The notes beneath the pieces are model-generated. The model was not told the DNA's origin. It did not search any database and saw nothing but the letters and a program-made list of their open reading frames with translations. A program made the translations under genes and the position numbers. Positions 47,163 through 61,400 of a stretch of DNA of 64,000 nt are shown here, one piece after another; within the stretch, counting starts at the first letter, position 1; every line of letters begins with the position of its first letter. Source of the stretch: Limnochorda sp. LNt (GTDB taxonomy: Bacteria > Bacillota > Limnochordia > Limnochordales > Geochordaceae). Where the stretch lies: assembly GCF_035593265.1 (NCBI RefSeq), contig NZ_CP141614.1, positions 372,001 to 436,000 of the forward strand. Direction: 5' to 3'.

Positions 47163-47474
47163 TCATTCGCCTGCGCCTGGCGGGGGGCGACGCGCCAGCA
47201 TCATGCCGTCATGCTCGACCAGGTCGACAGGAGGGCTACCCAGCACCTTGACGGCTTGCTCGCCAGGTACGCTTGGCTCCCGCCACAACATGGCGATGCT
47301 TGCGTCGACTTCCACGGCAAACCACTCTTCCAGCACGCCCCAGATGCGCTCTCGGACGGCGGGCGACAAGCGAAAGCCACAATAGACCCCAGGCGCAAGC
47401 TCCAGCATCGAGGAAGCCAGGAACCCCCTGATGCGATCTGATACGTTACGCGTCACGATGATCGTCGTCGACAT
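47163..47474 (-). CDS. cas2: Type I-E CRISPR-associated endoribonuclease-like Cas2e
   Basis: 103 residues from ATG 47474, overlapping cas1 by 29 nt. Typical Cas2e start TTIIVTRNVSDRIRGFLASS, then MLELAPGVYCGFRLSPAVRE and WGVLEEWF. It forms the Cas1-Cas2 integrase that inserts new spacers at the array leader. Last gene of the operon. The IS3 relic begins at its stop codon. Confidence 0.93.
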   Translation of the reverse strand: MSTTIIVTRNVSDRIRGFLASSMLELAPGVYCGFRLSPAVRERIWGVLEEWFAVEVDASIAMLWREPSVPGEQAVKVLGSPPVDLVEHDGMMLARRPPPGAGE

Positions 47475-48342
47475 CGAGTAGCTCCTTGATCTTCCCGATC
47501 ATGGCGGGGATGACTCGCTTGGTCCGAAACCACTTGGCTGCCTCGTATCGAACTTCTCTCTCCAAGGGGAGCTCGGGATCGCGCAGAACGCGCGCCGCCA
47601 CGGAGAAGGCCAGCGGCAACGTCACCTCTGCCCGCCACAGGTCAGCGATGTCCAGGGTGAAGGCGTTGCTCGACTCTTCATGGATGAAGCCCAAGGGCGG
47701 GAGTGCTCCGACTGCTGCAACGGCGATGTCGGCCGCCGCCTCGACGAAGGTGGCCGCATGGTTGACGGCTTGGTTGGGGATATCTGCGGCCTCCGGATTG
47801 TCACGGTCATACCGGCGGCCCTTCCACTCGATGCCGTACTTCCTGGCGATGATGCGGTACGTCTCCCGGACCCGAGCCCCTTCCATCCCTCGTAGGATGC
47901 TGATGTCCCGATGGGGCAGGACCTCACCGAAGCGAACCGCGTACATGCGGCGTGCGACCCGGAGGCGGGACTCCTCGTCTGCCCAGAGCCGGGCATGGGC
48001 CCTAGCCACATCCGATCGGCCCTGCCCCATGGGCGGTGCGGTATAGAGCTTCACCCCACCCTCCCCGACCGCCGCGAGGAGGGTCCCGTGACGAGCTAGG
48101 ATACGCAACACGTCGTGGGTGACGCTTGTCCCGGGGCCCATCAGAATCATGGAGACGCCCTGATACGGAATGGCGTAGACACCTGGGGGCAGATCATCGC
48201 TACCGGCCGCCCGAAAGCAGAGCGTCCCATCCTCTACGTACAGATTCCCTCGGGATAACCACAGAAGCCCGTGGCGGTCCGCATGGGGGATGCTCGACCC
48301 TGCCAGGCCGAGGCGTCCTGGAAACAGGAAAGACGAACTCAT
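47446..48342 (-). CDS. cas1: Type I-E spacer integrase Cas1e
   Basis: 298 residues from ATG 48342, which overlaps the cas6e stop (ATGA). The N-terminal beta domain includes LLWLSRGNLYVEDGTLCF. The alpha-helical catalytic domain includes RGMEGARVRETYRIIARKYG with a metal-binding Glu, then LPPLGFIHEESSNAFTLDIA with the conserved His and Asp. Full length for Cas1e and apparently intact, so adaptation could still work although interference is probably lost. Confidence 0.94.
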   Translation of the reverse strand: MSSSFLFPGRLGLAGSSIPHADRHGLLWLSRGNLYVEDGTLCFRAAGSDDLPPGVYAIPYQGVSMILMGPGTSVTHDVLRILARHGTLLAAVGEGGVKLYTAPPMGQGRSDVARAHARLWADEESRLRVARRMYAVRFGEVLPHRDISILRGMEGARVRETYRIIARKYGIEWKGRRYDRDNPEAADIPNQAVNHAATFVEAAADIAVAAVGALPPLGFIHEESSNAFTLDIADLWRAEVTLPLAFSVAARVLRDPELPLEREVRYEAAKWFRTKRVIPAMIGKIKELLDVDDDHRDA

Positions 48343-49070
48343 GACGGAGGCCTCAGGAGGACCATGCCATAGCCGAAGGCCCTGTGCCGACCGATCCCTT
48401 TGCACAACAGGCTCGCAAACGCTTCAGGGTCTCCCACCATCAGCTCACCTCGCAGGAGGGCCTGGGGCCTGGTTATATGCCTCTGCCCCCGGCCGTGGCG
48501 TGACCCCTGCACGCGGCGGGTCTGCCTGACCAGCCGGAAACCCTCCAAGCGGATGCTGGTCACCGTGCAGGCACCCTGTCGCTCCAGGCGCTCGCGGACC
48601 CAATCGGAGTACACCCTGTCACGAGTCAGAGCTCCTGGGGGCGCCGAGTCTGCGCGGATGAGGAACAAGTCCTTCTCAATGCCCCCCTCAGCCTTGCGCC
48701 CCACGGGACAACATAGCACCTCGAAGCCCAACCGGCGCCCATGCCGCCACGAAGGCATCGCCTTCCCGGCGATCATCGTCTCCGGATCCGGACAAACGGC
48801 TGCAGAAGCAGGCTCGGCCAACTCTCGCAGACGTCGTCGCAACTGCTCGGCATCAGCGCGACCATATCCCAGGATCCGTGGCGGCCTGCCGCGCCCTACA
48901 AATAGGCGCCACGGCTTGGGTGCCAGCGGGCCGAAGGTGGCGGCCAACCAGGCATGGATGCCGTAACCGAGATCCTCGTCGCCATCCCGAATGTCCAGTC
49001 CCTGTCCCTGCAAGAACCGCAGGAGAAGGGGCAGGTCGATGCGCAACTCCAGCATGTAAAGCGTGGTCAC
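48339..49070 (-). CDS. cas6e: Type I-E crRNA endonuclease Cas6e
   Basis: 243 residues from GTG 49070, which overlaps the cas5e stop (GTGA). Starts TTLYMLELRIDLPLLLRFLQ and includes GYGIHAWLAATFGPLAPKPW with a His in the usual catalytic zone. It ends with the glycine-rich RNA-binding loop GIGRHRAFGYGMVLL. It cuts the array transcript within each repeat hairpin and stays bound to the crRNA 3' end in Cascade. Confidence 0.93.
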   Translation of the reverse strand: MTTLYMLELRIDLPLLLRFLQGQGLDIRDGDEDLGYGIHAWLAATFGPLAPKPWRLFVGRGRPPRILGYGRADAEQLRRRLRELAEPASAAVCPDPETMIAGKAMPSWRHGRRLGFEVLCCPVGRKAEGGIEKDLFLIRADSAPPGALTRDRVYSDWVRERLERQGACTVTSIRLEGFRLVRQTRRVQGSRHGRGQRHITRPQALLRGELMVGDPEAFASLLCKGIGRHRAFGYGMVLLRPPS

Positions 49071-49681
49071 GGTGCCTTCCCCTCGATGATGCCCTCGACC
49101 CGCCAACGGCTACCCGCCGGGATTTGATTGGACCAATCGCGCAGGTCGAAGACCCGCCGGAGTTCGCCGCGGCCGGCCGTCCCGAGGCTGGCTGGCCAAC
49201 ACGCCAGTAGACGGTCGGCGGCTTTGACCGGGAGCCCGGCTCGGTCCCAGACCGGTATCCCGCGCAGGATTGACAGAAGGTCGTCGCCGTCAGCGACCGG
49301 CGTCACCGGATCCAGTAGGGGCCGCGCCGGGAGACAGGCCTTGCGTCCAAGGAACAGGGGCCTGGCGGGGTGTCGTAGGGCCTCTACGACCCTTTCGAGC
49401 GTCGGCTCAGCGTCACCGTGGAGCGTCAACACCACCGTCAAGAGGCCGTCAACCCAGTAGTGACGATAGCGCTCGTGTGTGCCGAGCCTGGCCGATGGCC
49501 CGCCCGCCCTGTGCTCGGCCACGCCGCGACGCGTCCATCCCGGTCGGGACATCTTCGGTTGGCCGAGGTCGACCGTGTGGTAATCGACCATCCGTTGTGG
49601 CAGCACATCCCAACGGGCCGCGTACTCCAAGCGACGTTGGAGCGCATCCAACTGCTCGAAGTCTCCATGGCTCCATCCTAG

Positions 49682-51627
49682 GTGACCGCTCGGAAACCGT
49701 ACCCCACGGGGTATGAGCTGATGGGGTTTGAAGAATAGAAAGTCGATGATGAACGCCGGAGGGCTTTCTTGGACAGTAACCATTGATACACCTCTATGAG
49801 CTTTCTGTAGCTTTGTATTGCTGCACCGCTCTTGCGTTCACGCCCGTTTTCGTGGTACGATGCGGCTGGAAACCACCTCCGGGCAGGGAGTGGAGCGGCG
49901 TGCTGGGCCGGCGCAACCGGCAGACCACCTTCGACGACGTCACCTGGCGACAGCGCATCCCCAAGGACTCCTACTGGTGGCGGCTCCACGACTGGGCGGT
50001 GCAGAACCTGGACGAATCGATGTTTGCTCCGCTGTTTGACGCCCGCACCGGAAGGCCTTCGGTGAGCCCGGTCCACACGTTTCTGGCGCTGTTGATCCAG
50101 ATGGAGAAGGGCTACTCGGACCGGGAGATGGAGCAGGAATCCCGCTTCGATGACCGGGTGAAGCTGGCGATTTTGGCGGGGCGGGACTTTGAGGGCATCG
50201 ATGCGGTGACGCTGTGCGACCACCGCCGGCGCTTCTTGCAGCATGGCATCGCGGCGGCCATGCTGGAGAGGACCCTGGCCTCGGCCAAGCAGGCGGGGCT
50301 GTTTTCGCCGGAGCGCTCCCAGATCGTCGATTCCTTTCTCATCCACGGCGGGGCCGCCGTGCAGGACACCTACACCCTCATCCGCAAGGGTATCGTGCGG
50401 GTCCTGGCGGTGGCCCGGATGCACGAGCTGGACGGTCCGCTTTCGGCGGTACTGAAGCGCACCGATTACCACCAGCCGGGCAAGCCCCGGATCGACTGGG
50501 ACGACGCCGAGGCCCGCCGACAGCTGCTCCAGGCGCTGGTCGACGACGCGTTGGCCCTGGTGGCGGCGGCGCGGGCGCTTGCGAAGGTGCCCGAGGACTT
50601 GAAGGCCATGGTGGACCTGCTGGAGCGGGTGGCCACCCAGGACATCGAGCGGGACCCGGACGGGACGGTCCGCCTCAAGCAGGGGGTGGCCAAGGACCGG
50701 GTCATCTCGGTGGTCGACCCCGAGATGCGCCATGGCCACAAGACGGCCTCGAACCGGGCAGACGGCTACAAAGCCCATCTGATGACGGGCGGCGAGGGCC
50801 ACCGGCTGGTCACCGCCGTCGCGGTGACGCCCGCCAACGCACCGGACGACGCGAGGCTGGAGGCGATGCTGGACGACCAGGAGCGGCACGGCCACCGCCC
50901 CGCGGAGGTGCTGGGCGATCAGGCGTACTTCGACGTCGAGCGCGCCCGGCGCCAGGCCGAGAAGGGGACCCTCATCGTGGCCAAGGCGCCCCGGCGACGA
51001 ACCGGGAGGGTACTCTCGAAGGAGGCCTTCGCCCTGGACGCCGACGCCGGCACGCTCACCTGCCCCGCAGGCAGACGGTCCGCTTCGACCCGGGCCGACT
51101 GCAGCACCACAAGGGGTTCGTGGTGAGCTTTGCGGCCGAGGCCTGCGGGGCCTGTCCCCTCAAGGCCCGCTGCACGCCGGCGGCGGCCCGTCAGGTCACG
51201 ATCCACCCCTACGAGGTCGAGCTGCGGCAGGCTCGGGCGTACCAGCGCACCCCGGCCTTTCGGGAGCGCTACCGGCTGCGGGCCCGCATCGAGCGCATCG
51301 TGCGGCAGCTCAAGACCCACGGGGCCCGCAAGGCGCGCTACTGGGGTCGCATCAAGGTGCGCTTCCAGCTCCTGCTGGCCGCCATCAACCACAACATCAA
51401 GGAGGTGATGGCCGCCGGGCCACCCGTGGGGGTGGTGGGCCCCGCATGAGTAAGAAGCTGGAAGACAAGGAAAAGAGAAGGGAAACCGGGGGTTGGAAAG
51501 GCAGCACGACGCGCTCCGCCCTCCCGTCGAAGGCCGCGATTGGGTCGAGCTCGAACCCGCTGGCCGCATGCCTGACCTTTCAAACCCCCTACCAAAGGCC
51601 CGATTCAACAGGAAACCGAGCAGTCAC
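49682..51627 (+). mobile_element. IS1182-family insertion sequence, copy C, inside cas5e
   Basis: A 1946-bp element with CTAG duplications at 49678-49681 and 51628-51631, and inverted repeats GTGACCGCTCGG / CCGAGCAGTCAC. Its leader is like copy B and unlike copy A. It lies antiparallel to the cas operon, so its transposase transcript opposes cas transcription. Confidence 0.95.
49900..51449 (+). pseudogene. IS1182 transposase, frameshifted (copy C)
   Basis: Collinear with the copy A transposase but missing four single bases: a C near 50991, a G near 51010, a T near 51013 and a G near 51070. The frame breaks twice in the middle; the C-terminal part is open again to 51449. One substitution (Ser to Leu) distinguishes it around 50550. 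Not expected to give active enzyme unless the indels are sequencing errors. Confidence 0.85.
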
Positions 51628-51753
51628 CTAGGGCATTGGCGACGAGACCCGTGAGCATGGACGTCCCGGGGAAGAGATCGATGAAACCATGTTGGTCGAC
51701 GAGCACCGAGCCAAAACTGACCAGTGGCGCGTCGAACCGCATGACCAGCGCCC

Positions 51754-52938
51754 TCATGGCGCATCACCCAGAGCGTGGTCGAGGCTTTGCCTGATCGCTT
51801 CACGCAGGGGGACCACAGGTTCGCGGTCCCGCGGCCAGGGATGCGCGCAGGAGACGAAACGCCGCTCCTCGGAGTCACCGTACATGGACTCGAGGGCGTT
51901 GAGGTACTTGGCCATCGCTTCCACGGACTGGGCCATTGGATGGCCGTCGTGGTGTCCCAGGCTCACGGGCTTCAGGAAGGCATTGGCGAGGCTTCGAGGC
52001 TGCGTGGTCCCCACCTCGAGCACCACGCACTCCGCGCGGGCGTATGGAGCCGTTGCGCCCAGCTTGGCCCCAGGCGTCACCTGGGCTATGGCCTGAATGA
52101 GCAAGTCGAGGAGAGCTCGGGCGTCCCCGCGGTCCTGAGCCTGCCATTCGTGACGCCTGCAGCCGGTCAGGTTGGATACCAAGAGGGGGATGTCCACGAC
52201 CACGTACCCGTAGAAGATGCCTGCACCTATCTCCATGTCGCCCGCATGAGCAGCCCCCGTCTCCTCGTCGGCCGCCAGGTCATCGACCGCCGTGAAGAAG
52301 TCCACCTCGGTCTCCAGGGCGTGCGTCGTGAAGGCGTGGCCTACGTGCACGGGCGCGTCAACGCGAGCCAGCACGTCCGATGTGACGAAGCGCCCGAACA
52401 AAGCGCCCTCGAAGCCGGCCACGGGGTTACGGATGCCAGCCTGGTCGAGAAGGGCCTTGAAGTTGTTCTTCTCCGCTTTGATTCTCGCATCGAGATAGGC
52501 CTTGGCCTTCTCCACGCTACCCTCACGGGCCGCCTCCTGGATGAGGGTGACGAAGTAGTCCGCCTCCGGCTGTCCAAACAGGACAGGCTGCTTCATCTCC
52601 AAGCGATCCCGGTCCACGGCTTCCTTCTCGCCTGCTGCCTTGAGGACCCCCTGGGCCAGGTGGAACGTCAAGGCATGGGCGACGTCCTCCTGCATCCCTT
52701 GCTCGATCAGACGACCTTTGACGATCCTGGCGAAGAAGTGCCGGGACCGGATACCCGCAGGTAGTCGGGTGTGCTCCATCATCCATTGGCGCCAATGGCG
52801 CTTCTGACACTGGCTCGAGACGCGGAGCCGGGGGTAACCTCCAAAGATGATCCGCTTGGCCAACCCCGCATCGTCTCGATTGAGCAGGCTCGCATGGTAA
52901 CTGGTGAGAAAGTGAATCTGCAGAAACACGCCCTTCAT
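51754..52938 (-). CDS. cas7e: Type I-E Cascade backbone subunit Cas7e (Cse4)
   Basis: 394 residues from ATG 52938, overlapping cas11 by 4 nt. Starts FLQIHFLTSYHASLLNRDDA, then IIFGGYPRLRVSSQCQKRHW. Middle motifs are GALFGRFVTSDVLARVDAPV, VGHAFTTHALETEVDFFTAV and AGIFYGYVVVDIPLLVSNL. Six copies form the crRNA-binding backbone of Cascade. Apparently intact. Confidence 0.94.
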   Translation of the reverse strand: MKGVFLQIHFLTSYHASLLNRDDAGLAKRIIFGGYPRLRVSSQCQKRHWRQWMMEHTRLPAGIRSRHFFARIVKGRLIEQGMQEDVAHALTFHLAQGVLKAAGEKEAVDRDRLEMKQPVLFGQPEADYFVTLIQEAAREGSVEKAKAYLDARIKAEKNNFKALLDQAGIRNPVAGFEGALFGRFVTSDVLARVDAPVHVGHAFTTHALETEVDFFTAVDDLAADEETGAAHAGDMEIGAGIFYGYVVVDIPLLVSNLTGCRRHEWQAQDRGDARALLDLLIQAIAQVTPGAKLGATAPYARAECVVLEVGTTQPRSLANAFLKPVSLGHHDGHPMAQSVEAMAKYLNALESMYGDSEERRFVSCAHPWPRDREPVVPLREAIRQSLDHALGDAP

Positions 52939-53459
52939 CCTGCCTTTCTGTCTTGCGTCGTGAACTGGTAGTAGAAGTCTCGAGCGATCTTGTCCTGGAC
53001 CGCTTCACGCTTCTCGGGATCCTGGGTGAGCAAGAGCAGGGCCGCATCCACCCAGTTACACGAGCTGGACTTGGCTGCAAGAAAGCGCGCCGCTCGCAAT
53101 AGCAAGACCCGGCGCGTATCTCCCTCGGCGGTGAGGAGCCTCTCCAACCGGGCCTCCGAATACCGAGCCTCAGCCAGGGCCCGTCCCAGGCCCTTGTCGG
53201 GGTTGTGCGCGGCAGGGCTCATGAGCGCGATGCCTGCCACCAAGGTAATCCAGTCCCGCCGTGACTGCGGCGTGCGATCCCACCATTCCGGAAGGTAGAG
53301 CGCTGCGAAACGATAGAACACGACCGGCGGCAGTTGGGTAGGGTGCATTCGTCGAAGGGCCGCGCGTTCCCCTGTTGGAAAGCGTTCGCTTGCGATCACA
53401 CGAGCGATCTGCCCGATATGATGATGAAGCGTCGCCTCAGGCGACACCAACGTCCTCAC
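52935..53459 (-). CDS. cas11: Type I-E Cascade small subunit Cas11 (Cse2)
   Basis: 174 residues from GTG 53459, overlapping the end of cas8e by 23 nt. A helical protein: LRRMHPTQLPPVVFYRFAAL, WITLVAGIALMSPAAHNPDK, LGRALAEARYSEARLERLLT and NWVDAALLLLTQDPEKREAV, as in Cse2. Two copies form the belly of Cascade and stabilise the displaced strand. Position between cas8e and cas7e is canonical. Confidence 0.93.
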   Translation of the reverse strand: MRTLVSPEATLHHHIGQIARVIASERFPTGERAALRRMHPTQLPPVVFYRFAALYLPEWWDRTPQSRRDWITLVAGIALMSPAAHNPDKGLGRALAEARYSEARLERLLTAEGDTRRVLLLRAARFLAAKSSSCNWVDAALLLLTQDPEKREAVQDKIARDFYYQFTTQDRKAG

Positions 53460-55008
53460 GTGCTTCCTCCCTCAAGAACGGGAAATTGCCGTTGGCGTAC
53501 AGCCCTGTCCAGAAGCGCCGCTCTGCCGCCACTCGGGCCTGGAAACGACGCCCTATGTGCGTGGGCAAGAATCTCTCTGCCTCGCGGAGGATCTCCAGTG
53601 CGAAGTCTCGCAACTGCAGGGCCCATTGCCTCGAGACGAGCTGCTCGTCGAACGGTTCAGGTACGGACCACAGCCACGTAAAGAAGGCATCCGTCCATCG
53701 CGCCTGAAACCTCCCTGCAACCCCCCTCCACCATGCCTCGTAGGATTCTCGGTCTGCCGCCGATGTAGCCGTGGCCAGGTATGTCAGCACCGCTGGCCGG
53801 AGTACGCGGTTTTGCATCCGGCCCGCGTATTCGACGCCCGTCTTGCTCAACTCCGCCAATGGTTGACGTCGCTCTGGAGGGCCAAAGACACGGAGTCGGG
53901 CCGCTGCCGGGATGGCAACCCGCCGCTCGTGGAATCCATCTGTGGTGCCCTGGCCGCGTACCAGGACGGACGCAGACAGCCAAACATCTCCCTGCCATCG
54001 GGCGTCCGGCCGTTGCAAGGGAGTCAGCTTGAGCTCATCTGCGAAGATCAGCCGTCGGATGAGGTCGGCGTCCCAACCCCTCGGGCCCACAGTGAGCGCC
54101 TTGATCCCGCCGTCTCCTCGGCTGCTCGACTCGCGCAGGTCGATGGGCAACCACGCGTCTCCCACGGCCCCACGGAGTTCGCTGGCTGCGATGCGGTCAG
54201 CCACTGAGGCGACGGCTTCAGCGTGAGTGGGTCGACCATCCCCCTTGAGCCGGACCCTGCGGCAAACCTCGACATAGAAGGGGTCCAGCAGCGTCAGGGG
54301 CAAGGCCGTCTTGCCGTCCCACGGCTCGGTCCAGACCAGGACGATCCCTCTGGGATCGTAGCCATAGGCAGATCCAAGGACTTCCCGGCGATGGTCGAGC
54401 AGGCGCGACACGGCATCGCGCCACCTGACACCAGGACGGAAGCTCCGCACGATCTCGACGACGGGCCGGTTGCCAAAGCCCCCGTTCATGCGGGATATCC
54501 CCCGGTTGCCCACGCCGTAAAACCCGCTCATGGTCTGGAGGCTGACCAGAGCGTAGACCCACGCGTCGGGGTCGGCCCGGACTGCCCGGGTCTGCTTCAA
54601 GTCGTGATTCTTGGCTGTAGGTAGAAGGTCGAGGGCATCGGGCGTGTCAGCGATAGGTCGGAGTCGGTCGTGATCCTCTGGGGGCAGGGGTGGCTGCATG
54701 AAAGCGGGCCGAGAGAGGTCCGGGACGACCAGGGTCCACGCGTCATCACCCGCTTCCCCCGCCAGGCCCCTGAGCCCGTCTCGCCAGTACTGGGCGTCAT
54801 GGATCACGTCCGTATCGCCACGACGAGCCAACACGGCCCCGGCAAGATAGCACAGGAATACGTGAAAAGCATCCTCCTGGTGCCGTTGAAGCCCTGGCAG
54901 GTGCTCTACCTGATCCCGTCCCAGGGCAGCCATCAACTCGGGCAGGCTCAGGCGACGGAACCCCTCAGAGGTCTCCGTCCGCAGCAGCGGGTCCGTGAGC
55001 AGGTTCAC
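53437..55008 (-). CDS. cas8e: Type I-E Cascade large subunit Cas8e (Cse1)
   Basis: 523 residues from GTG 55008, with GGAGGAGCTCC ahead; the frame is open to 55026. Starts NLLTDPLLRTETSEGFRRLS; includes RPAFMQPPLPPEDHDRLRPI, LDLLPTAKNHDLKQTRAV, LVSLQTMSGFYGVGNRGISR and GNRPVVEIV, the Cse1 core. It recognises the PAM and recruits Cas3. Its start overlaps the end of cas3 by 44 nt. Confidence 0.94.
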   Translation of the reverse strand: MNLLTDPLLRTETSEGFRRLSLPELMAALGRDQVEHLPGLQRHQEDAFHVFLCYLAGAVLARRGDTDVIHDAQYWRDGLRGLAGEAGDDAWTLVVPDLSRPAFMQPPLPPEDHDRLRPIADTPDALDLLPTAKNHDLKQTRAVRADPDAWVYALVSLQTMSGFYGVGNRGISRMNGGFGNRPVVEIVRSFRPGVRWRDAVSRLLDHRREVLGSAYGYDPRGIVLVWTEPWDGKTALPLTLLDPFYVEVCRRVRLKGDGRPTHAEAVASVADRIAASELRGAVGDAWLPIDLRESSSRGDGGIKALTVGPRGWDADLIRRLIFADELKLTPLQRPDARWQGDVWLSASVLVRGQGTTDGFHERRVAIPAAARLRVFGPPERRQPLAELSKTGVEYAGRMQNRVLRPAVLTYLATATSAADRESYEAWWRGVAGRFQARWTDAFFTWLWSVPEPFDEQLVSRQWALQLRDFALEILREAERFLPTHIGRRFQARVAAERRFWTGLYANGNFPFLREEAREDVGVA

Positions 55009-57637
55009 GGAGCTCCTCCAATCCAAACCGGCTGTAACGGTATCGGCGGGCGCCGCAGCGAAGGATGGCGACGCCGTCGCCCTGCTGCTCGACCGCGATG
55101 TGGTCCACCGGTTCCACGGGACTCATGTGGCCGGGGATGACCATCTCTTGTAGCGTCTGGCCGAACGGGCTGATGACAGGACGGTCCAGCGGAAGTTGGA
55201 GGTTGCGCACACCGAGCCGGACGCTCACGCTGCCCCCAGACTCATTGAACTCGAAGGTGCCGAAGTACTTGTCGAAGATGGCGGCCACATGCCCTGCTGC
55301 GACGGCTCGGGCCAGGTCACCTCCCTCGACGTGCTCGGCATGACGTTGCCACCGACTTCCCTGCAAGCCCGCCAGGTGCTGAGGGTGTGTCACGGCTTCG
55401 ACAAGTCGGCGGTTGTCACGAGGGATGCTGACCTCAGGGTGCTCCTCCAAGACCCGGCGAGTCAGCTCGAGTGTCCTCACGTCCTCGTAGACGCTTCCGT
55501 AACCGAGGCGTTTGTAGCTATCGACCACGCGGCCTTGGTCATCGAGTGCTTGGGTCAGGTCTCCCGCCGGTACCAGGACGATGCACCGGGCGGGAGGGCC
55601 GTAGCCGGGTGGCCGCTCCTTGTTGTGCCGGTGCAGACGGCCCACGCGCTGCAGGAGCACGTCGGCTGGGGCCAGGTCTGAGATCATCAAGTCGGCGTCG
55701 ATGTCCAGGCTCTGCTCCAGCGTCTGGGTCCCGACGAGGAGAAGAGGCCCTCCCGCAGAGCCAGGCCCCAGCAGTTCGCTCACGCGACCGTCGAGGAGAG
55801 AGCGGTCCTCCGGCGCGAAGCGGCCATGATGGGGACAGACCACCCCAGCACAGGTGAACAACCAGGCCGGGTCAACGCGGTCGCATCGTTCGAATGCACG
55901 CAGAAGCGCGTTGGCCCGGTCCACCGTATTCATCACGACCACGATCCGGGCTCTGCCGGCCAGCGCTTCTGCAACGCCTTCGACGACGGCCTCGGGCGTG
56001 AAGGCCACGGGCATCAGCTCGAATCGAACACGCTTCTCCCCCCTGGATGTCACCTGAACGGCTCTTGGGACCCCATCTGCCAGCGTAATCGCCGGATAGG
56101 GTGCCTGTTCGGTGACCCGGGCTTCCGCTAGGGGAGGTTGGTTGCCGGCTATCGAGACATAGCGATACCGCGCTCGCGCGCCGAGCGTGGCCGACAGCAG
56201 CATGGCGTAGCCACCGACACGCAGGTGGTGCTCGAGCAGTCGTTCGAGCAACCGCGACATGTACACGTCGGAGGCATGGACCTCGTCCACCACCAGCAGA
56301 CTTCGGTCGAGGCACACGGAGCGTAAGTGAGCATGGGCTGTCTGGACCGCGGACAGCAGCGCCTGGTCGATGGTGCCGACGGCCACTGTTGCGGCGAGGA
56401 AGCGCTTGGGACGCTCGCCCGCCCACTGGCGCTGCTGCTTCAGGAGCACCTCATCGTCCTGCCAGATATTGGCCGATTCCTCCGCGGGGAGTGTCTGCTC
56501 GGGAGAGAGGCCATCTACCTGGACATAACCGGGCACGGCGAGGAGTGTAACCGGGCGGGTGGACGAATCGGGGAACCACCGTCGCATGACGCGCCAGACA
56601 CGCCCGTAGATCTCGCGCGCCGCCACTCGGGTGGGGAGCGCAAAGAATAGCCCGTCGACTTTGCCGGCACGGAAGAGCTTGAACCACCAATTCAACGCTG
56701 CCTCGGTCTTGCCCGAGCCAGTCTCCGATTCGGCGATGACGAGGCGTGCGTCGGGCAACTCGGGGTCAAGGGCGTCGATAGCCTCTTGCAGGGGCCGTGG
56801 AGCAAATCCGAACCGTTGGTGGAAGTGATGGGGCGCTCGCGACAGGACTTGGCGGAGGTCGCTCACGTCCAACCCTACGGCTCGCAGGAGCCTTGGCGCC
56901 ACCTGCCGGGCATGGTGCAGACGTCGTCCCGCATCGACCTTCTCGACCGGGAACCACGCCGGGTGAGACCCGAGCCAGTCTGCCAGCATGAGAAGGCCGG
57001 CGAAACGGTGATGGAACCTGGGTTCTGAAGGCAACGTCGGTCCGCTCGGCTCGAACGCGCCGGGGAACGCAATCTGAGCCCACTTCGAGATCTCAGCGAT
57101 GGCAGCCATCGGGTCCCACATGCCATCGCGCCGCCACCATCGGTCGCGTGCATCCCAATAGGCAGCGCTGCGTTCGCCCTTGAACTGGAGGGGCGTACCA
57201 TGGTGCGAGAAGGCGGCGACGAAGTAGCTGTATGCCACCTGGTCGTCGTCGAACCAGGTGTGCATACCGGGTGGCAGCGCCTCGAGAAAGGCCATGTGGA
57301 GTTGCTCATCCAGGGCATACGGATCGAGCAAGGGTGCCAGTTCTCGGATATGGCCGGCCCTTGGCATCTTGCTGCCATAGACCTTCAATTGGAAGCCGAG
57401 GTTGGCCTTGCCGATGTCATGAAGCATGGCCAGCACTGCGAGCCGGTCCATCTGTTGACCTGTGACGGGCGCCCCCGCGGCGCATTGCAGCGAGCGCCTG
57501 ATCCCATCGAGCTCGCACAGCGCTCTAAACACGACGGCGACGTCGAGGCAGTGGGCCACAAGTGGCAAGCAGCGGGAGTCCTCGGGGCGGAACTTGCCCC
57601 AGAAGATGCATGCCTCTGCGCTCCCGGTGCGGAGCAT
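54965..57637 (-). CDS. cas3: Type I-E helicase-nuclease Cas3
   Basis: 890 residues from ATG 57637. N-terminal HD nuclease: H29 (LVAHCLDVA), H73-D74 (AMLHDIGKANLGFQ) and H145-H146 (AFSHHGTPL). Helicase: Walker A GSGKT 307-311, DEVH 451-454, SAT near 483, and LLQRVGRLHRHNKERP in the second RecA domain. This HD-first order is that of standard Cas3, unlike the type I-G Cas3 at the other end of the window. First gene of the cas operon, divergent from the DnaQ-like gene with about 100 bp between. Confidence 0.95.
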   Translation of the reverse strand: MLRTGSAEACIFWGKFRPEDSRCLPLVAHCLDVAVVFRALCELDGIRRSLQCAAGAPVTGQQMDRLAVLAMLHDIGKANLGFQLKVYGSKMPRAGHIRELAPLLDPYALDEQLHMAFLEALPPGMHTWFDDDQVAYSYFVAAFSHHGTPLQFKGERSAAYWDARDRWWRRDGMWDPMAAIAEISKWAQIAFPGAFEPSGPTLPSEPRFHHRFAGLLMLADWLGSHPAWFPVEKVDAGRRLHHARQVAPRLLRAVGLDVSDLRQVLSRAPHHFHQRFGFAPRPLQEAIDALDPELPDARLVIAESETGSGKTEAALNWWFKLFRAGKVDGLFFALPTRVAAREIYGRVWRVMRRWFPDSSTRPVTLLAVPGYVQVDGLSPEQTLPAEESANIWQDDEVLLKQQRQWAGERPKRFLAATVAVGTIDQALLSAVQTAHAHLRSVCLDRSLLVVDEVHASDVYMSRLLERLLEHHLRVGGYAMLLSATLGARARYRYVSIAGNQPPLAEARVTEQAPYPAITLADGVPRAVQVTSRGEKRVRFELMPVAFTPEAVVEGVAEALAGRARIVVVMNTVDRANALLRAFERCDRVDPAWLFTCAGVVCPHHGRFAPEDRSLLDGRVSELLGPGSAGGPLLLVGTQTLEQSLDIDADLMISDLAPADVLLQRVGRLHRHNKERPPGYGPPARCIVLVPAGDLTQALDDQGRVVDSYKRLGYGSVYEDVRTLELTRRVLEEHPEVSIPRDNRRLVEAVTHPQHLAGLQGSRWQRHAEHVEGGDLARAVAAGHVAAIFDKYFGTFEFNESGGSVSVRLGVRNLQLPLDRPVISPFGQTLQEMVIPGHMSPVEPVDHIAVEQQGDGVAILRCGARRYRYSRFGLEELREPAHGPAAADGDL

Positions 57638-57736
57638 GTCGCGTCATGCTTCCCTTCCCGACGCCGATACCCTGAAGGATGGAAGGACGCTCAAGGGGAA
57701 CCAGCACTTAACGACACATGGATGAAGGGAGACCCG

Positions 57737-58399
57737 ATGCGCCGGACACCCCATCTCGGTAGCGCGACCCTTGACTCATCAGGGGTAGGAGCGATCGTTG
57801 ACGTCGAGACAACGGGCTTGCAGCCCGATCGGGACGAGGTCATCGAGCTCGGCATTCTCCTCTTCGCTTATGAACGTAGCTCCGCTCGAATCCTCGCGGT
57901 CGTCGACGAATACGTCGGCCAGCGACAACCGTCACGACCCATCCCAGCCGCGGCCACTCGCGTACATGGAATGAGCGAGGAGCATGTCCGCGGACAAACG
58001 CTGGATCATCAAAGAGTCAGAGCCTTGCTCCAAAGAGCTGAGTTCCTGGTCTCCCATCACGCAGCCTTCGACCGACGGTTCGTCTTGCAGCTCTACCCCG
58101 ACCTCGCCAGCCGAAGATGGCTGTGCTCCCTGGAAGGTATCGATTGGCGCGGGCATGGATTCAAGTCTCGGAGCTTGCAGGCCCTGCTCGAGGCACACGC
58201 CATCCGCTCCGATGTCCGACACCGGGCGCAAGCTGACTGCCGGGCCTTGCTCGCTCTGCTCGAACGCCCCAGTGCGAACGGTAACACGTATTTGTACGAG
58301 CTCCTCAACCACTATGACATGCTGGGCGCCTCACACCCCCACGTAGATCAGCCGTTGCTTCGGGTCGGTCCCGAAGCGTCTGACTGGGCGATATCCTAA
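57737..58399 (+). CDS. DnaQ-family DEDDh 3'-5' exonuclease next to the type I-E locus
   Basis: 220 residues from ATG 57737, with AAGGGAG ahead; an ATG at 57722 would add five residues. ExoI motif GAIVDVETTGL (D22, E24), then TRVHGMSEEHV. ExoII is FLVSHHAAFDRRFV (D112), and ExoIII is RHRAQADCRALLALL (H162, D167). All five DEDDh residues are present. It has no polymerase domain and no Cas2 domain. It sits alone between cas3 and the trailer end of the array. DnaQ-type exonucleases trim prespacer ends in other type I-E systems, and DnaQ-Cas2 fusions exist, so a role in spacer trimming is a reasonable inference. Confidence 0.88.
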   Translation: MRRTPHLGSATLDSSGVGAIVDVETTGLQPDRDEVIELGILLFAYERSSARILAVVDEYVGQRQPSRPIPAAATRVHGMSEEHVRGQTLDHQRVRALLQRAEFLVSHHAAFDRRFVLQLYPDLASRRWLCSLEGIDWRGHGFKSRSLQALLEAHAIRSDVRHRAQADCRALLALLERPSANGNTYLYELLNHYDMLGASHPHVDQPLLRVGPEASDWAIS

Positions 58400-58477: not shown

Positions 58478-61400
58478 GTGGAGTGAAAGCGCACGCGGGG
58501 GAGCCGTACTGGGAGTCGGCGACGGCTCCACCACGCAGGGTCGATCCCCGCGCACGCGGGGGAGCCCCCGATGGCAGCCCTGCCGAGCGCAACGGCCACG
58601 GTCGATCCCCGCGCACGCGGGGGAGCCTCTTCGACCTGAATGGCAACGTGTGGGAATGGGGGTCGATCCCCGCGCACGCGGGGGAGCCCGAAACAGGACG
58701 CCGGAGATCCGATGAGGCAGCGGTCGATCCCCGCGCACGCGGGGGAGCCATATCTACCCGCGCCCGCGCGTTCTCTCGCGCGGGTCGATCCCCGCGCACG
58801 CGGGGGAGCCGAACTCCACGGCGACGTGTACGGCTGGGAGGACGGTCGATCCCCGCGCACGCGGGGGAGCCACTCACCGCTGTCGCTTTCGCGGCCGGGT
58901 CGAGGGTCGATCCCCGCGCACGCGGGGGAGCCGAATGTAATGCACCACAGACGGCTCATCAAGGGGGTCGATCCCCGCGCACGCGGGGGAGCCAACGTCA
59001 CCGTGGCGCCGGGGCCGTCGGCCAGGGGTCGATCCCCGCGCACGCGGGGGAGCCGGCGATCGGCTGGTATCTGTCCCAGACGCCGCGGGTCGATCCCCGC
59101 GCACGCGGGGGAGCCCGCCGCCACCCATCGGTGCCGACGCTCGGCGCGGGTCGATCCCCGCGCACGCGGGGGAGCCGCTCGCGGCGGGTCGGGCACACGG
59201 GCGGCCGGGGGTCGATCCCCGCGCACGCGGGGTAGCCTTGCAGCAGCGCCAGGACGGTGTCGGGGCGGATGGTCGATCCCCGCGCACGCGGGGTAGCCGG
59301 TACCCACGCAGATCCACCACTGGCCTGCGGGGGTCGATCCCCGCGCACGCGGGGGAGCCCCGTCAGTGGTGCGGATACGGTCAAGCAGCGCAGGTCGATC
59401 CCCGCGCACGCGGGGGAGCCTGGTAGCAGGTGCGTCCTGCCAGCTCGATGAGAGGTCGATCCCCGCGCACGCGGGGGAGCCATCTCCTCGCCCTCCCCCA
59501 CATCCGCGGTGGCGGGTCGATCCCCGCGCACGCGAGGGAGCCAGCTCCTCCTCGAGCCGCCAGGTCGCCTCGTAAGGTCGATCCCCGCGCACGCGGGGGA
59601 GCCTGCGCCGCCGTACACTTGAATGCAGAGCAGCCGGGTCGATCCCCGCGCACGCGGGGGAGCCGCAGAGTACAGGGTACGGGATCCGTGGGATCAAGGT
59701 CGATCCCCGCGCACGCGGGGGAGCCCGTCGCCCGCCTCCTGGACGGCCTGCGGAGCCAGGTCGATCCCCGCGCACGCGGGGGAGCCTGGTGACGCAGCGG
59801 GCCCAATTCTCCTGCTGGCGGTCGATCCCCGCGCACGCGGGGGAGCCGAAAAACGCCGCAAGCCCATCACGCCGGCGCAAGGTCGATCCCCGCGCACGCG
59901 GGGGAGCCACGAAGAGACCCACGTAAAGCATGGCGGGGGCGGGTCGATCCCCGCGCACGCGGGGGAGCCGCCGCGATGGCCTCCTCGGCGTTGTGCGGGT
60001 CAGGTCGATCCCCGCGCACGCGGGGGAGCCATGCAGTTTCGCACCAGGATGGCACCCCGTCGAGGTCGATCCCCGCGCACGCGGGGGAGCCACGGCATCA
60101 GCCGAGTGCACGGCTGGTATGACGGGTCGATCCCCGCGCACGCGGGGGAGCCCACGGGTGGCCCAAAGGGATTGCGCTTGATGGCGGTCGATCCCCGCGC
60201 ACGCGGGGGAGCCCCGCCGTCCATCACCGGCACGCCGCGCGTCTCAGGTCGATCCCCGCGCACGCGGGGGAGCCGGCGATACGCGCCAATGGGAAGGCGC
60301 TCGGGCAGGTCGATCCCCGCGCACGCGGGGGAGCCAGGACCTGGCGCGTCGGCGACGAAAGCGCAGGAGGTCGATCCCCGCGCACGCGGGGGAGCCCAGA
60401 CTGGCTCGCCATTCGGATCACGGCGCGGGGGTCGATCCCCGCGCACGCGGGGGAGCCGCCCACCGCGCCTGGAGCCGTGAGGCCGCCAGGGGTCGATCCC
60501 CGCGCACGCGGGGGAGCCCTCGCCGGTGTGCCACGCCATCTCACGCCCGCAGGTCGATCCCCGCGCACGCGGGGGAGCCACTTCCGCGCGCCTTGAAAGA
60601 GGCGAAGCGGCGGGTCGATCCCCGCGCACGCGGGGGAGCCCGGGTCGATGCGGCTGCCTGACAGCATGGCCCAGGTCGATCCCCGCGCACGCGGGGGAGC
60701 CCGTCGTCTCCACGTGCGGGTAGGCGTGCTGCAGGGTCGATCCCCGCGCACGCGGGGGAGCCTTTTTCGCCCGCGTGACGGCGTGGGCTCGGACGGGTCG
60801 ATCCCCGCGCACGCGGGGGAGCCCCGCACATTCTCCCGCTCAATGATGCGCTGAAGGGTCGATCCCCGCGCACGCGGGGGAGCCACCTCCTGGCAGCTCT
60901 CGACGGCCTCCCACGGGGGTCGATCCCCGCGCACGCGGGGGAGCCGCGGCCCGCAAGCTCAACTACTTCATCCGGGCAGGTCGATCCCCGCGCACGCGGG
61001 GGAGCCCGTGGCGGCCTGTGCCCGTTCGGTCTCGGTGAGGGTCGATCCCCGCGCACGCGGGGGAGCCATATACGCCTGGCAAGGGGGTGAATGTTACGGT
61101 GGTCGATCCCCGCGCACGCGGGGGAGCCCTATTCCGCAGGTCCTTTCCGCCGAACGCGGCGGGTCGATCCCCGCGCACGCGGGGGAGCCCCTGTAGGACG
61201 TCGGACAGCGTGATCATGCGGCGGTCGATCCCCGCGCACGCGGGGGAGCCATGTTCTCGTTCTTATCCACGTCTACTGCCAGGGGTCGATCCCCGCGCAC
61301 GCGGGGGAGCCTGGTCGGTATGCATGGCTCTCGCTCCCCTAGCGGGTCGATCCCCGCGCACGCGGGGGAGCCACCTCCACCTCAACGCGGGGAGGCTCGT

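Follow-up and report, generated by a model that had tools for sequence, protein, structure and literature searches.

The window, that is, the whole 64,000-nucleotide stretch of the Limnochorda sp. LNt genome (G000) analysed here, contains a type I-E CRISPR-Cas locus with the gene order cas3-cas8e-cse2-cas7-cas5-cas6-cas1-cas2 (positions 57637 to 47163), encoded on the minus strand. Profile matches identify cas3, encoding the helicase-nuclease (54965-57637), cas8e/cse1 (53437-55026), cse2/cas11e (52935-53459), cas7e (51754-52938), cas6e (48339-49106), cas1e (47446-48405) and cas2e (47163-47474). The cas5e gene is split by an insertion sequence (49677-51632) that is bounded by 17-nucleotide terminal inverted repeats (49677-49693 and 51616-51632) and carries a plus-strand DDE_Tnp_1/DUF772 transposase gene (49783-51126). 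The 3' remainder of cas5e (49067-49681) was recognized by profile and tblastn matches, and its 5' fragment, codons 1 to 44 (51626-51757), by tblastn with the Cas5 N-termini of sister loci (64-77% identity). With its eight cas genes, cas5 being split, and an array of 28-29-nucleotide repeats, the locus is of type I-E. Between cas3 and the array, on the opposite strand from the operon and divergent from cas3, lies a gene for a stand-alone DEDDh (DnaQ-like, RNase_T) 3'-5' exonuclease (57737-58399, plus strand).

The array (repeat GGCTCCCCCGCGTGCGCGGGGATCGACC, minus strand, 61-bp period) begins at position 58478 and continues past the end of the window (64000) to about 71195, comprising 178 units in a consensus walk. 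The repeat and the cas genes share one direction, here as well as in the sister loci. The end next to the exonuclease gene holds the most degenerate repeat (58478-58505) along with three single-base variant repeats, which identifies it as the trailer; at the far, leader end, the last repeat is degenerate. An array on the plus strand, with the exonuclease at the leader, was ruled out by the common direction of repeats and cas genes in the sister loci and by these variant repeats. The location of the exonuclease gene in the gap between cas3 and the array trailer, proposed previously in a sequence-only reading, is thus confirmed, with the correction that the gene diverges from cas3 and does not belong to the operon.

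The genome carries several further copies of the cas5 insertion sequence, one of which (440095-441435 of G000) interrupts the CRISPR array. Given that cas5 is split and the array is broken, the I-E system is probably decaying in this genome; judging from these lesions, interference is probably impaired in the isolate, and the exonuclease may now serve mainly in general DNA-end processing. A second CRISPR locus is located just before the window (L042 11727-17792; G000:C1 363.7-369.8 kb), with an array of 31 repeats at a 72-bp period and a 610-amino-acid open reading frame that has a Cas4 match and looks like a Cas4-Cas1 fusion. On account of such fusions, we take this locus to be, probably, of subtype I-G.

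The exonuclease gene is complete, from an ATG at 57737, preceded by AAGGGAG, to the stop codon at 58397-58399, and encodes a single-domain protein of 220 amino acids; this ATG is probably the start, with a second in-frame ATG at 57722 as a possible alternative. A promoter scan of the gap beside the gene found none. The Pfam RNase_T profile is matched over its entire length by residues 20-175 (53.1 bits, E 7e-14), the PADLOC profile 'DEDDh, CAS-associated' (PDLC01247) gives 88.5 bits, and the catalytic residues D22, E24, D112, H162 and D167 are all present and invariant across eight aligned homologs. An AlphaFold model (pLDDT about 95 over the domain) has its best PDB matches among DEDDh exonucleases, namely 8h2f/8h18 (the DnaQ domain of Streptococcus thermophilus DGCC 7710), E. 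coli epsilon, ExoX and TREX1/2, and 8h18 is found among the sequence-profile matches as well. Thus, the protein is a member of the DEDDh/RNase_T superfamily, with a predicted exonuclease activity, and the sequence-only reading was correct in describing a complete enzyme that lacks other domains. One feature sets this copy apart in the alignment: the Exo II position that is normally Asn is occupied by His108 in the window protein only. The genome, a single contig of 3.02 Mb, encodes no second full-length RNase_T domain; the other RNase_T match is an exonuclease remnant within a UvrD-like open reading frame. The Cas2 protein of the locus (103 amino acids) contains no exonuclease domain and, accordingly, the exonuclease is unfused, as previously stated.

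PRK09182 (NF006615) is the NCBIfam family matched best by the window protein, as by each of the eight aligned homologs, although the score of the window protein, 170.7 bits, is below the curated cut-off of 207, so that we classify it as PRK09182-like only. In a tree of 92 domains, 70 of them from the family of the window protein and the rest including 12 Cas2-fused DEDDh domains, the 70 and the 12 fall on opposite sides of a branch with 100/100 support; the window protein accordingly lies outside the Cas2-DEDDh fusion group, both in being unfused and in its tree position. Two homologs deserve separate mention. The one from G004 is fused to a C-terminal BRCT domain (L034 10013-11197), which suggests that some members of the family act in DNA repair, and in the one from G027 (L033 1674-2273, G027:C336) a TAG codon lies in frame within the exonuclease domain; the I-E genes of G027 are among the closest relatives of those in the window.

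To describe the genomic context of the family, we searched genome contigs for homologs (a single-protein query matched none, an alignment-based query did) and examined 71 neighborhoods, 41 from genomes of the same class or phylum and 30 from named genomes, several of them shortened by contig ends. Components of type I-E systems adjoin the homolog in four (the window, G132, G010 and G013), and the remaining 67 contain neither an array nor I-E cas genes. Contig ends hiding arrays were ruled out as an explanation by a search for repeat-like hairpins within 4 kb of the gene in 38 loci, where I-E-like ones were detected in G132 only and single isolated matches in two others, at distances of about 2 and 3.8 kb. 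Among the non-CRISPR neighbors are the EPSP synthase gene (G004, G005), a TetR-family regulator (G015, G020) and carB-arg operons (G007, G013). Homologs at 42-45% identity are encoded on viral contigs (L191, L192), with no cas genes or CRISPR arrays nearby. The sequence-only reading, which had called the gene a dedicated copy, had itself proposed such a survey and had named homologs located mostly away from CRISPR loci as the result that would speak against it; this is the distribution observed, and the gene is missing from most I-E loci of the window's own clade: of the seven in which the region upstream of cas3 can be read clearly, two have it (G000 and G132). The window gene thus resembles stand-alone CRISPR-ancillary DEDDh genes in its profile match and in its position within a cas/array locus, but does not belong to a mostly CRISPR-linked family.

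At the level of whole genomes, the homolog and Cas1e are not significantly enriched for co-occurrence (one-sided Fisher p = 0.08 in the class and 0.36 in the phylum): in the class survey, 9 of 72 genomes encode a close homolog, 15 encode Cas1e and 4 encode both, and in the phylum sample of 398 genomes the respective numbers are 40, 30 and 4, that is, a homolog in 4 of the 30 Cas1e genomes vs 36 of the 368 others. Adjacency of the two is a different matter. Seven genomes hold both a homolog and an I-E signature (the G013 array counted), and in four of these the two are side by side; by a rough binomial estimate, which assumes about 3 I-E-bordering gene positions in 2500 and ignores genome islands, the chance of finding adjacency in three of the six other genomes is near 3e-8. 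The adjacency is therefore above chance, and the recurring position beside I-E components is upheld by three genomes in addition to the window. In the complete genome G005, the homolog and cas1 are 1.2 Mb apart.

The four linked cases differ in their organization. In G132 (L151), a genome unrelated to that of the window, the I-E system belongs to the same clade (77% identity in Cas1) and the exonuclease gene occupies the same slot between trailer and cas3: a degenerate mini-array of two repeats is followed by the exonuclease gene, cas3 through cas2 and the array, all in one direction, with the exonuclease gene inverted in the window. In G010, the exonuclease gene and an A/T-rich leader precede an I-E array. 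The repeat of this array is confined to two contigs, at the ends where these abut, and cas1 and cas3 lie on one of the two; we infer that the contigs join across the array. In G013, the gene, a leader and four I-E-like repeats stand in this order at the end of a contig; Cas1e and Cas7e were searched for in this genome and not found. The gene is therefore on the trailer/cas3 side in G000 and G132 and on the leader side in G010 and G013, and these opposite orientations and different locus ends make the linkage unlike that of a fixed functional unit. In the tree, the four linked proteins are scattered (four changes), and a single CRISPR-dedicated clade of all four is rejected (p-AU 0.0007), so that recruitment of this stand-alone lineage next to I-E systems, as read from the phylogeny, probably occurred repeatedly. 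A clade of the G000 and G132 proteins is not rejected (p-AU 0.127), and these two may share one recruitment.

We give about an even chance to the following explanation: a general-purpose PRK09182-like exonuclease, of a family that is usually chromosomal and unrelated to CRISPR, was placed beside I-E systems more than once and, where linked, is likely to act as a prespacer trimmer in trans. By analogy, the linked enzyme would trim the single-stranded 3' overhangs of Cas1-Cas2-bound prespacers, in trans rather than in cis as for the fused DEDDh domain, and Cas1-Cas2 would supply the ruler for spacer length. In the Cas1-Cas2/DEDDh system, the exonuclease trims the 3' overhangs exposed past the integrase, which defines the length (PMC10284694), and by analogy with this trimming a stand-alone enzyme could act in trans. 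Several observations count against this explanation, namely the finding that E. coli can do without DnaQ and ExoT in vivo, with prespacer structure unchanged (PMC9699676), the 1.2-Mb separation in G005, the Asn to His replacement in Exo II, and the lack of a fixed orientation or side. The earlier proposal that the exonuclease trims prespacers is plausible as far as trimming by analogy with Cas1-Cas2/DEDDh (PMC10284694) is concerned, but not in its length-setting part.

Nearly as likely, if somewhat short of even, is that the protein serves in repair or end processing as a housekeeping exonuclease, has no part in CRISPR function and was brought next to arrays by hitchhiking or by a shared insertion-prone island. 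The predominance of homologs outside CRISPR neighborhoods, their stable non-CRISPR neighbors (EPSP synthase, TetR-family regulator, carB-arg operons), the BRCT fusion in G004, the sister I-E loci that manage without the gene and its status as the only full RNase_T domain of the genome all speak for such a bystander. What this reading accommodates poorly is adjacency in four of the seven genomes that hold both, far above random placement, and the identical trailer-cas3 slot in G132 and the window. Returning to the trimmer in trans, this reading can be broadened to a scheme in which I-E systems obtain a trimming exonuclease by two routes, one DEDDh lineage being fused to Cas2 and a separate PRK09182-like lineage being repeatedly recruited to fusion-less loci as a functional substitute; in this general form, we consider it unlikely.

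A role in interference or crRNA maturation, such as degradation of Cas3 products or trimming of crRNA 3' ends, is improbable. In the window and in G132 alike, the exonuclease gene adjoins cas3, and some DEDDh enzymes, for example RNase T, act on RNA; however, in G010 and G013 the gene adjoins the leader and not cas3, type I-E crRNAs normally retain the 3' hairpin, and an RNA-specific signature was looked for in the exonuclease and not found.

Comparison of array periods bears directly on the claim that the exonuclease sets the 33-nucleotide spacer length. In loci with the stand-alone DEDDh gene, the period is exactly 61 bp in 198 of 202 cases (for the window alone, 170 of 174), and in the sister loci of the same clade that lack DEDDh in 64 of 64. 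The 61-bp period being equal with and without the gene, the stand-alone exonuclease is not the source of the uniform spacers and does not set their length; published work locates the ruler in Cas1-Cas2 (PMC10284694, PMC9699676). Loci with a Cas2-DEDDh fusion are similarly uniform (331 of 339). Six more distant I-E loci without the fusion are looser, with 165 of 223 periods at 61 bp, in a comparison that is confounded with clade; one of the six, L124 (16 of 16 at 61 bp), comes from G005, which holds the gene elsewhere. Off-length periods number 8 of 339 with the fusion vs 58 of 223 without it (per-locus Mann-Whitney p = 0.004), which, with the same confounding by clade, is consistent with the fused domain acting in precision. 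That the gene encodes an adaptation protein dedicated to setting the spacer length, for which one could cite the position of the gene inside the locus, the unfused Cas2 and this tighter period of distant fusion loci, is thus very improbable in view of the uniform sister loci, the absence of the gene from most of the clade and the placement of the ruler in Cas1-Cas2. Among individual loci, L125, L174 and L180 have I-E arrays without the fusion and with periods of 59-63 bp, looser than the fusion arrays, again confounded by clade; Cas2-DEDDh fusions (open reading frames of 296-366 amino acids) directly precede the array in many I-E loci of the phylum and in one Coriobacteriales locus (L126, L127, L178, L179, L181-L187, L189, L121).

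The recruited trimmer, the reading we prefer, bears on the question of what enzymes process the 3' ends of prespacers where a type I-E system has neither Cas4 nor a Cas2-DEDDh fusion; according to the E. coli study (PMC9699676), the set of 3'-end enzymes has yet to be established. G132 and similar genomes, in which the operon looks intact and a stand-alone DEDDh gene is linked to it, pair naturally with the sister loci that lack this gene, which makes the choice between recruited trimmer and bystander directly testable. The original suggestion of a distinct arrangement is not supported: PMC10284694, citing Makarova 2020, describes stand-alone DEDDh genes as ancillary components that are widespread in all CRISPR types, and a PADLOC model exists. 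What is added here is an exonuclease lineage that is distinct from the fused domain and was placed beside I-E systems more than once.

Among known systems, the PRK09182-like exonucleases (NF006615), common in Alphaproteobacteria, provide the best family match, share the same side of the tree (100/100) and show the same generality, CRISPR linkage having been found in none of the 30 further homologs from named genomes, but the homologs from the phylum of the window mostly cluster apart from the proteobacterial ones, and the window protein scores below the cut-off. The E. coli DnaQ and ExoT enzymes acting on Cas1-Cas2-bound prespacers belong to the same superfamily and are host 3'-5' exonucleases supplied in trans, but are encoded away from CRISPR, in addition to being dispensable (PMC9699676). 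The stand-alone ancillary DEDDh genes likewise lie within CRISPR-cas loci and share the PDLC01247 match, although that category is defined by a profile match and not by a proven system, and the lineage in the window is CRISPR-linked only occasionally. Finally, the Cas1-Cas2/DEDDh systems of type I-E (Megasphaera; Cas2-DnaQ of S. thermophilus) have the same fold, catalytic residues, locus type and spacer period, and the chemistry of the window enzyme is likely to be the same; the difference is that the exonuclease in the window is unfused and belongs to a separate lineage of the tree, with a separate Cas2 encoded 10 kb away.
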